Source: Saprospiraceae bacterium
Lineage (GTDB): Bacteria; Bacteroidota; Bacteroidia; Chitinophagales; Saprospiraceae
Length of the DNA stretch: 64,000 nucleotides
Reading direction: 5' to 3'
Assembly: GCA_020628095.1 (NCBI GenBank)
Contig: JAHDFP010000009.1
Span: 1 to 64,000, forward strand
The position numbers and the translations under genes are program-made. The notes under the pieces are model-generated. The model was not told the origin of the DNA. It was given only the letters and a program-made list of their open reading frames with translations, and searched no databases. Below, one piece after another: positions 20,236-23,155 of the stretch; position 1 is the stretch's first letter; the number at the start of each line of letters is the position of its first letter.

Positions 20236-20820
20236 TCAGTGTAATGCAGCCCTTATTTCCAGACTATTCAATATATCCGCTTCTTGTTGCACCCACCATT
20301 CTAATCTTTTATAGACTTGATCCTCAGGGAAATATTGTAGGGCCATTTTGACATAAATATGCCCGTGTTTGGCCTCAGAAACCCAGAGCATTTTGTAGAA
20401 TTTTTTTAGTTCTGCATCAGTGAGGGCTTCTGCTACTAATTTGAATCTTTCCGCACCACGTACCTCTACTAAAGAAGCTAATAGAAGCCTATCCATGAAT
20501 CTCTCTTCTCTACCAGAGTGGCAGAGTTTGAGCAGTCTTTTGATATAGGGATCTTCGCCGATGGAATGGGCCAAGGGTACACCTTTAGATTCCATAACCT
20601 TGTAGACCATCTGAAAATGCTCCAGTTCCTCTATTCCAGTTTCGATTAGTTCCGGTAAGATTTCTTTGCGATCAGGATATTTAGCCACAAAACTCATCGC
20701 CATGGCAGAGGCTTTACGCTCGCAATCTGCATGGTCTTGTAGAAAAGAATCAAAGTCTGCCATGACAGCATCTACCCACTCTTGCTTACTCTCACATGCC
20801 AGATCCAGAGTTAATTTCAT
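20236..20820 (-). CDS. miaE: tRNA-(ms2io6A)-hydroxylase, MiaE
   Basis: This 194-residue protein is a ferritin-like diiron monooxygenase of the MiaE family. Visible ligand motifs are the ADCERKASAMAMSF helix, EELEHFQ (Glu-x-x-His), EVRGAERF and the second-half EAKHGHIYV (Glu-x-x-His). MiaE hydroxylates the isopentenyl group of 2-methylthio-N6-isopentenyl-adenosine at tRNA position 37. Length and motif order are typical. The 44-residue membrane peptide gene lies just upstream on the same strand (7-bp gap), so the two may share a transcript. Confidence 0.93.
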   Translation of the reverse strand: MKLTLDLACESKQEWVDAVMADFDSFLQDHADCERKASAMAMSFVAKYPDRKEILPELIETGIEELEHFQMVYKVMESKGVPLAHSIGEDPYIKRLLKLCHSGREERFMDRLLLASLVEVRGAERFKLVAEALTDAELKKFYKMLWVSEAKHGHIYVKMALQYFPEDQVYKRLEWWVQQEADILNSLEIRAALH

Positions 20821-20827
20821 CCCTCTA

Positions 20828-20962
20828 TTAGTTAGACATCATAAAGATCGCATATAGTAGAACTAGTAGAATGATAACTATTCCTATAACGATAAATAAA
20901 AATTTCTTTTCCTGCTTTTTGTTGGCTACTGCCGCTTTTCGTTTTCTTTTAGATTTAGCCAT
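20828..20962 (-). CDS. 44-residue single-pass membrane peptide
   Basis: The minus strand encodes 44 residues from ATG 20962 to TAA 20828. A very basic N terminus (MAKSKRKRKAAVANKKQEKK) is followed by one 19-residue hydrophobic helix (FLFIVIGIVIILLVLLYA) and the tail IFMMSN. This is a convincing layout for a small inner-membrane protein with its N terminus inside. It sits 7 bp upstream of miaE on the same strand. Its first five codons lie inside one arm of a 22-bp perfect inverted repeat. I recognise no family. Confidence 0.7.
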   Translation of the reverse strand: MAKSKRKRKAAVANKKQEKKFLFIVIGIVIILLVLLYAIFMMSN

Positions 20963-21048
20963 TTCTTAGTATAACTCTTGAGAAAAATAGTAACAAGTCT
21001 AAGTTAGAAATTCTCTTGTAACTTTTTAAGAAATGGCTAAATCTAAAA
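20947..21048. repeat. 22-bp perfect inverted repeat spanning a start codon
   Basis: Positions 20947-20968 and 21027-21048 are exact reverse complements over 22 bp, separated by 58 bp. Each arm holds AAGAAATGGCTAAATC, that is, an ATG with its upstream A-rich context and the first codons (MAKSK). The left arm, on the minus strand, is the real start of the 44-residue peptide. The right arm, on the plus strand, opens an 11-codon frame (MAKSKMRNGFA, then stop). Confidence 0.85.
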
Positions 21049-21083
21049 TGCGAAATGGATTCGCTTAACACTTAGTTAATTGA

Positions 21084-21476
21084 TCAGCATGAGCGACAAT
21101 CGTTTAACTCTTCTTGTTCCGAATTTTCTATTTTGGCTCTGATGCATACAGTACCGCATGACTGAGGTAGGTGACCCGAGACTCTAACACATGTTCTTGG
21201 TGGTAAAGAAGGAAAGTGTTCTCTGAATAATTCTCCGTCAAAAGGGCAATATTCGATCGATACATTAACAAAACCTGCATAGGACCTGCAATATTGAGAA
21301 TTGTTGCAAATAACGATGCTCCAGTTGAAACCGTTACAGTCATCATCATAATTAACTATTAGATTCTCAATGTTAGCTTCTACGAAGCATTTAGTAGCAG
21401 CGCCAGCAACCTCTAATGATGCATTATCAGATGGATGCAAAAAACAAGTTGTTAAGAGAAGTAAAAACAATTTCAT
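21084..21476 (-). CDS. Cys-rich small secreted protein, unknown function
   Basis: This 130-residue protein has a short hydrophobic leader (MKLFLLLLTTCFLHPS) and about ten cysteines in the mature part (for example DDCNGFNWSIVICNNSQYC, PPRTCVRVSGHLPQSCGTVC, NDCRSC). The number and spacing suggest a disulfide-bonded beta protein outside the cytoplasm. No family is recognised. It is alone between a 22-bp inverted repeat and a 363-bp gap that carries dyad symmetries upstream of its start. Confidence 0.65.
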   Translation of the reverse strand: MKLFLLLLTTCFLHPSDNASLEVAGAATKCFVEANIENLIVNYDDDCNGFNWSIVICNNSQYCRSYAGFVNVSIEYCPFDGELFREHFPSLPPRTCVRVSGHLPQSCGTVCIRAKIENSEQEELNDCRSC

Positions 21477-21839
21477 TTATTGGATTTTGAATTACTAAAA
21501 TTGAATGTCATATCATGGTTCAATTTTATTCCATGAAGTAAACATTCCTGTGGGAATTAGTGAGTCTTGTTCACTTGGTTGCCTGCCTTACCTTCCTTAC
21601 CTTGAAAATAAGCCTCATGAATGGGAAAATAGCACATCAAAGTATCTGATATTAATGCATTGTTATGTCAATATGCATTAATGGAGTTGACCAAATCCAG
21701 TGTCTTAGAACTTATATATGAAAATGTTTTAAACTATATGTCCATGGCTGTCAAATTGATAATAAAGGCTCTCAAAATGCTCTATAAATTCTCGTAATAC
21801 ATTGACCAGTCAACAATAAAGTGACGTCTACTTTACACT
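21477..21839. other. 363-bp gap without a gene, with several dyads
   Basis: No convincing reading frame is present. It holds TAAAATTGAA / TTCAATTTTA (21496-21505 and 21519-21528), a 10-bp perfect dyad just upstream of the Cys-rich gene, and ATTAATGCAT / ATGCATTAAT (21651-21660 and 21673-21682), a second 10-bp perfect dyad. A TAAAGTG / CACTTTA pair brackets the 3' end of the helicase gene. The first dyad could be an operator for the Cys-rich gene. Confidence 0.5.
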
Positions 21840-23135
21840 TTAGTTGAGTCGCTTCATGGTCTCATAGAAGTCGACGATGATCTGATCGACCATGATGTCT
21901 TTTCCTGTAATTTGTTTTTTGAGGCGGATGCCTTCTAAGGTGCGGCATCGGCTTAGAGCCACATAAGTTTGTCCATAGTCGAAGGCACCACGCCCCAGAT
22001 CGACGATGATATTATCAAAGGTCTTACCCTGAGACTTATGGATTGTTATCGCCCATGCTAGCTTGATCGGAAACTGGGTGAATGTACCGACGACTTCGGC
22101 TTTGTATTTATTGGGGTCTTTGTTATCCAGTTTGTATTGGATCATTTCCCACTCCATGCGCTCGACATTGATGTTTTTTGTTTCGCCTTTGTCGGTGATT
22201 CTGACGATGATTTTGTCATGTTCTATCTGAGTGATGACGCCGAGGGTACCATTGACGAATTGCCCTTGTGTATCATTACGAACGAACATCACTTGCGCCT
22301 CTTCTTTGAGCCAAAGGTATTGCTCCGCAGGACAGGATTTGGGATTGAACTGACCACTTACTTTGGCAATAAACTCAAAGGGTTTCGATGCAAGTTTTTT
22401 GAGTTGTTCGTTGTTTATTTTGTTGACGGAAGCATTCGTAGAGCAGAGGGTGATTGCTGGCCCTTCTTCTTCGGACTCGGCGGTGTATCTCTCATTGATT
22501 TCTTGCATGATCTCATAGTCGAGTGATCTGGTACGGATGTTATCTAGCAGTTGGACAAATCGCCTTTCTTTTTGCCTGAATACCTGATGGAGTTCTATCA
22601 TCTGCATTTCTATCTCCGAGAACACATCGGCACTAAAGAAATAAGGACTACCATATTTTTCTTTGAGGACTTTTTTCTCAAAGGCACTCGCCACGACAGG
22701 TGGTAACTGAAAGAGATCACCAAAAACCACCAACTGCACACCACCGAATGGTCTGGCATCTTCTCTGTTCTTCCTTAGGAATATATCTATGGCATCGATC
22801 ATATCCGCACGGACCATAGATATTTCGTCTATGATGAGGAGCTTGAGTTTCTTATAGAAATGATGATTTTTGCGTTTGGTCAGTTCGTGTGGCTCTATCA
22901 TCCGAGGTGGCAGTTTAAAAAAAGAGTGTATCGTCTGACCTCGTACATTGAGCGCAGCGATGCCTGTGGGAGCGACGACCGCTTTGTTTTTTCGGGTTGT
23001 ATTTTTAAGAAGATTGAGGAGGGTGGATTTTCCAGTACCAGCGCGACCCGTTATAAATATGTGATGCTCATGATTTTCTATCTCATCAAGAATGTCTAGA
23101 AATTCTTTATTGATAATATGAGGTTGCTTGAGCAT
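21840..23135 (-). CDS. Pif1-like DNA helicase
   Basis: I start at ATG 23135; a TTG 15 nt upstream lies inside the probable -7 promoter box. The 431-residue product is a superfamily 1B helicase of the Pif1/RecD2 type. It has Walker A GRAGTGKST (about 29-37), motif Ia VVAPTGIAALNVRGQTIHSFF, Walker B LLIIDEISMV, motif III GDLFQLPPV, and C-terminal AITIHKSQGKTFD and YVALSRCR. These proteins unwind DNA 5'-3', including at stalled forks and G-quadruplexes. It stands alone, and all helicase motifs look intact. Confidence 0.92.
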   Translation of the reverse strand: MLKQPHIINKEFLDILDEIENHEHHIFITGRAGTGKSTLLNLLKNTTRKNKAVVAPTGIAALNVRGQTIHSFFKLPPRMIEPHELTKRKNHHFYKKLKLLIIDEISMVRADMIDAIDIFLRKNREDARPFGGVQLVVFGDLFQLPPVVASAFEKKVLKEKYGSPYFFSADVFSEIEMQMIELHQVFRQKERRFVQLLDNIRTRSLDYEIMQEINERYTAESEEEGPAITLCSTNASVNKINNEQLKKLASKPFEFIAKVSGQFNPKSCPAEQYLWLKEEAQVMFVRNDTQGQFVNGTLGVITQIEHDKIIVRITDKGETKNINVERMEWEMIQYKLDNKDPNKYKAEVVGTFTQFPIKLAWAITIHKSQGKTFDNIIVDLGRGAFDYGQTYVALSRCRTLEGIRLKKQITGKDIMVDQIIVDFYETMKRLN

Positions 23136-23147
23136 GGATGTGTGATA

Positions 23148-23155
23148 CAAAGGTA
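23148..23155 (-). promoter_or_regulatory. -7 box for the Pif1-like helicase gene
   Basis: On the minus strand TACCTTTG fits TAnnTTTG and ends 12 nt before ATG 23135, which implies a very short leader. A TTG lies upstream but only 14 nt away, so the -33 element is not consensus. Confidence 0.45.

Follow-up and report, generated by a model that had tools for sequence, protein, structure and literature searches.

A perfect inverted repeat at the start of a small membrane-protein gene in a Saprospiraceae genome is most likely the scar of an inverted duplication

We have analysed a 22-bp perfect inverted repeat which spans the initial codons of a small membrane-protein gene in the genome of a Saprospiraceae bacterium, within a stretch of DNA of 64,000 nucleotides (hereafter, the window). 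The repeat was found to be real yet ordinary, an inverted duplication seen in this genome only, for which the scar of a template switch is the most likely origin. We consider it probable that the repeat arose through a lineage-specific and probably recent inverted duplication of the gene start, probably via template switching during replication; a recent date is suggested by the fact that the two arms are still identical. The original prediction had offered two readings of the repeat, an invertible promoter switch and the scar of a duplicated gene start. The second fits the data, as the arms are perfect, the source gene is conserved and the repeat is absent from the relatives examined. A regulatory role is possible, conservation lending it no support. 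As a scar, the locus provides a clean example of how a long hairpin could come to lie at the start of a gene through one event of copying.

The two arms (Table 1) are complementary to one another at 22/22 positions across a spacer of 58 nt, precisely as originally proposed, and both contain ATGGCTAAATCTAAAA in opposite orientations, i.e. the start codon, four codons and one further base, which confirms the identical ATG context and first codons ascribed to them. The description of the arms as two copies of the same start region holds for the sequence itself; as regards genes, a conserved one begins at the left arm only, and the ATG of the right arm opens just an 11-codon frame (MAKSKMRNGFA*). 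The view that a random match of 22 bp at this distance is very unlikely was borne out when the 64-kb window was simulated 60 times with a second-order Markov model: with spacers of up to 300 nt allowed, the longest arm arising by chance measured 15 nt, and arms of at least 14 nt occurred with a mean of 0.03 per simulation. The real window contains two further inverted repeats with arms of at least 14 nt (15 and 14 nt). Along with the window, 20 stretches of 20 kb each were inspected, giving 464 kb of the same genome, or 11% of the 4,216,564 bases of the draft assembly (33 contigs); with spacers limited to 300 nt, the repeat described here was the sole perfect one in this sample to have arms >16 nt, and hence does not represent a repeat family. 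Furthermore, no near copies of the arm were found in the genome, the closest sequences to 18 of the 22 arm bases, besides the arms themselves, being two matches with 2 mismatches. It should be noted that the 102 bp as a whole gave a BLAST self-match (72% over 102 bases), which might suggest one extended palindrome; this was rejected, as the spacer pairs no better than shuffled sequences (8/29 pairs, shuffle p 0.74) and is thus not palindromic beyond chance.

Table 1. Positions of the inverted repeat and of neighbouring features in the window
Feature	Coordinates	Strand	Description
MiaE-like gene (PF06175)	20236..20820	-	directly downstream of the small gene; E 1.7e-43
Small gene	20828..20962	-	44 codons (44 aa); N-terminus basic, followed by a single hydrophobic segment; below the cut-offs of all Pfam and NCBIfam models
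Left arm	20947..20968	-	probable source copy; corresponds to positions -6 to +16 of the small gene (minus-strand reading); gene conserved in relatives
Spacer	20969..21026	.	58 nt; contains the presumed promoter of the small gene
Promoter-like motif TAACTTAG	20999..21006	-	ends 36 nt before the ATG
Right arm	21027..21048	+	probable derived inverted copy of the gene start; repeat absent from the relatives' loci examined
Weak terminator-like hairpin	21050..21064	-	after the orphan ORF; 5 pairs; 1 in 20750-21550 vs 0.4 expected (shuffles)
Orphan ORF	21084..21476	-	130 aa, cysteine-containing; signal-peptide-like N-terminus (by eye); within the extra DNA
PIF1-like helicase gene	21840..23150	-	in 11/13 genus relatives, a frame with a similar tail terminates immediately before the small gene

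Matches to the small gene were detected in each of the 13 other genomes of the genus with E-values of 1.2e-5 or better and, at E up to 1, in 50 out of 60 genomes (the window's own included), the weaker ones among them being unconvincing. Since the left arm lies inside this gene, we regard it as the source and thus the older of the two copies. With a single exception (G005), the small gene precedes a MiaE-like gene on the same strand in the other genus genomes (12/13), with gaps <100 nt. More broadly, the small-gene family was encountered in all 13 genus relatives and in many genomes of the family, often ahead of a MiaE-like gene. The MiaE-like protein in the window scores 88 bits, well short of the cut-off of 320 set for the NCBIfam MiaE model. 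Two MiaE-like matches are present in each of the 14 genomes of the genus, the second one being 32–35% identical to that of the window (in G000 it is located at C8:152022-152585).

The repeat could not be recovered from the relatives. Among 29 of their loci (L004–L032, drawn from the best 30 small-gene matches and covering 300 nt upstream and 150 nt downstream of the start), none exhibited an inverted repeat with an arm >11 nt. A second set consisted of the best 80 of 278 loci, from named genomes, that encode relatives of the MiaE-like protein, mostly Saprospiraceae by title, and may omit records very near the window's own genome; the small gene was recognised by script in 35 of these loci, and the other 45 were excluded from the count. 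Over the 700 nt that precede the MiaE-like gene, 0/35 loci with a recognised small gene had an arm >12 nt (spacer up to 250 nt), and 0/35 had an arm >9 nt touching the small-gene start; the 29-locus and 35-locus sets partly overlap in genomes. A conserved regulatory element was rejected on these grounds, the repeat being missing from all the relatives' loci examined (29/29 and 35/35). Some loci in which the small gene was not recognised do carry inverted repeats within the same distance before the MiaE-like gene: a perfect one with 31-nt arms was seen in L111 (Saprospiraceae), and arms of 15 and 14 nt in L105 and L145, respectively. The MiaE-like protein of the nearest relative is 86% identical to that of the window, and 176 of 1000 shuffles aligned as well as the intergenic sequence of the closest relative, G006. 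The intergenic DNA of the nearest relative is therefore too distant to align, which leaves the insertion site and the ancestral state unreadable.

The surroundings of the right arm differ from those in the relatives. In 11 of the 13 genus relatives a helicase-like frame ends 38–147 nt upstream of the small gene (tails compared by eye), and G003 and G008 have a different gene in this place. The corresponding gap in the window amounts to 877 nt (20963–21839), i.e. approximately 730–840 bp of extra DNA. The orphan ORF situated in this DNA gave no second match in its own genome and has no convincing relative among the 59 other relatives searched, the best of 10 matches having an E-value of 0.025; among 397 other genomes drawn from the family there was one match (E 4.7e-4), interrupted by two stops. 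The right arm is positioned 65–86 nt before the ATG; in 6 of the 11 relatives the helicase-like frame stops at a similar distance (67–75 nt), which places the arm at the border of the extra DNA or near it. Candidate weak direct repeats (D1 and D3) were also noticed between the two ends of this DNA. The inverted copy and the extra DNA may be linked events.

The spacer probably harbours the promoter of the small gene. Its motif, of the form TAnnTT[A/T]G, resembles the -7 element of Bacteroidota promoters, TAnnTTTG; in G006, the closest relative, its counterpart is TATCTTAG, whose end lies 38 nt ahead of the ATG. Within 75 nt of the start, TAnnTT[A/T]G occurs in 9 of the 14 genus genomes, that of the window included, vs 1.6 expected from mononucleotide shuffles, and it is missing in 5/14. 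A rival promoter, sigma-70-like (TTGTTA-17-TATACT), can be drawn on the minus strand at 20996–20968, with 5 such sites in the region vs 3.0 expected. On either strand, the sequence CTAAGTTAG at 20999–21007 can be read as a promoter-like motif of the form TAnnTTAG. When the spacer was aligned with those of the relatives as it stands and flipped, the present orientation scored better in 10/13 cases, the flipped one in 2, with one tie; these are weak alignments, and the 95% level of the shuffles was reached by 2/13 scores as-is (one of them exactly) and by 1/13 flipped.

According to the scenario that we favour, a segment of approximately 22 bases with the start codon of the small gene in it would have been copied, as its reverse complement, into the DNA immediately before the gene's promoter. 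This would most likely have happened by a template switch during replication, whereby the nascent strand folds back or crosses to the other strand, copies the gene start and then returns. The copy would have landed at or near the edge of the approximately 730–840 bp, orphan ORF included, that lie between the gene and the helicase gene usually next to it. With its presumed promoter kept in the spacer, the small gene should produce a transcript of its own that is devoid of the right arm; both arms would come together only in transcripts arriving from upstream, and these are predicted to form a 22-bp hairpin burying the start codon. A perfect reverse-complement copy (22/22) of a nearby source is what was observed here, and template switches are described, in PMC8794818, as making long new hairpin stems in one step. 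We count in favour of the scar the better alignment of the spacer as-is in 10/13 relatives, the promoter motif in the spacer and the hairpin z-score of -6.1 (see below). Against it we count the lack of a close outgroup, the weakness of the orientation alignments, the motif missing in 5/14 genomes and the long spacer: template switching in yeast favours shorter spacers (PMC8604942), and 58 nt therefore speak somewhat against this process. In addition, GAAATGG occurs both at 21030 and at 21052, a distance of 22 nt; this similarity, seen post hoc and uncontrolled, might mark a switch point.

The predicted folding of the minus strand from 21065 to 20930 yields -39.9 kcal/mol with a z-score of -6.1, chiefly via the 22-bp stem, and the spacer alone gives a z-score of 0.67. 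In two modelled read-through transcripts (from 21130 or 21490) the predicted probability of the ATG being unpaired is 0.00, vs 0.18 in the own-promoter transcript, which was assumed to start at 20992 and comes without the right arm; across the region from -12 to +16, the mean predicted unpaired probability is 0.19 in read-through vs 0.50 in the own-promoter transcript. The duplex formed in trans is predicted at -36.2 kcal/mol. For Flavobacterium johnsoniae, PMC6847099 links structure near the start to lower translation initiation, and the repeat could, by these models, dampen the translation of read-through RNA.

Another possible explanation is that the repeat has been selected as a read-through insulator or antisense element: transcripts of the orphan ORF would fold into the small-gene start, or pair with it in trans, and block its translation, leaving the gene's own promoter as the sole route to the protein. 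We assign a small chance to this explanation. It draws on the hairpin, the closed ATG and the trans duplex of the folding models, on the F. johnsoniae data and on the IS200 tnpA gene of Salmonella, where a stem-loop in the 5' part hides the ribosome-binding site (PMC12594629). A more specific model is doubtful: the RNA of the upstream orphan gene, carrying a perfect 22-nt complement, would shut down the translation of the next gene in cis or in trans, and only the promoter in the loop would drive the small protein and perhaps the MiaE-like enzyme. However, the repeat occurs in one genome only and hence offers neither covariation nor conservation, and the own-promoter transcript is itself predicted to be fairly closed at the ATG (0.18). 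Moreover, any such repeat would fold in this way, selected or not. If the hairpin were functional, it would illustrate how a new regulatory element can emerge in a single step at a gene upstream of which extra DNA has come to lie.

An artefact of assembly or amplification has only a slight chance of being the cause. The genome is indeed a draft in 33 contigs; however, a structure of 102 bp should fit into a single short read. Moreover, a chimera produced by fold-back should keep following the opposite strand, and would not be expected to leave it after 22 bases.

The invertible promoter switch of the original prediction, phase-variable and flipped by a site-specific recombinase acting at the 22-bp arms, appears very unlikely. 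Arms of 22 nt are within the range of 10–40 nt given for invertons in PMC11892184, a promoter-like motif does lie inside the spacer, and seven Phage_integrase matches over the cut-off, with one more below it, are present on other contigs. The suggested search for a nearby invertase, however, returned no Phage_integrase (PF00589) match on contig C10 at E up to 0.001, with room for a more distant enzyme, and no match to Resolvase (PF00239, serine recombinase) in the whole genome at the same threshold. No second copy of the site was found in the genome, the left arm is ordinary protein-coding sequence, the repeat is absent from the relatives examined, and the only target beyond the right arm would be the 11-codon frame. 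Furthermore, judged by the motif only, a TAnnTTAG directed at the gene is present whichever way the spacer is turned, its end being 36 nt away from the ATG as-is and 25 nt away when flipped, where TAAGTTAG would be offered at a distance within the range of the relatives; inversion would therefore not plainly turn the gene off. The proposal of a switch thus gains little from these data, and we regard it as unlikely, little besides the repeat itself pointing to inversion. A mobile element of the miniature inverted-repeat type, 102 bp long, as suggested by the perfect arms at either end of a short spacer, is the least probable of all and can be set aside, as one arm is the start of a conserved gene, no other copy was found in the genome and no flanking target duplication was seen by eye.

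The inverted duplication favoured here can be compared with several known systems. The RNA hairpins attributed to template switches (PMC8794818) are alike in that a perfect inverted copy of nearby sequence creates a long stem in one step; their ancestors were reconstructed, whereas here there is no close outgroup and the loop of 58 nt is long. Template switching at quasipalindromes and inverted repeats of E. coli and yeast (PMC7202029 and PMC8604942) similarly uses one arm as the template for the other, but acts on pre-existing imperfect repeats. Invertons (PMC11892184 and PMC8748976) resemble our locus in that a promoter-like motif is enclosed by inverted repeats of suitable length; unlike them, our locus has no recombinase match on the contig and no second site, and it combines a coding arm with a motif that points towards the gene either way. 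Finally, the inverted repeat in the 5' UTR of IS200 tnpA (PMC12594629) also hides a translation start; the gene at our locus, however, is not that of a transposon, and its presumed promoter lies in the loop, so that the stem would form in read-through RNA only.
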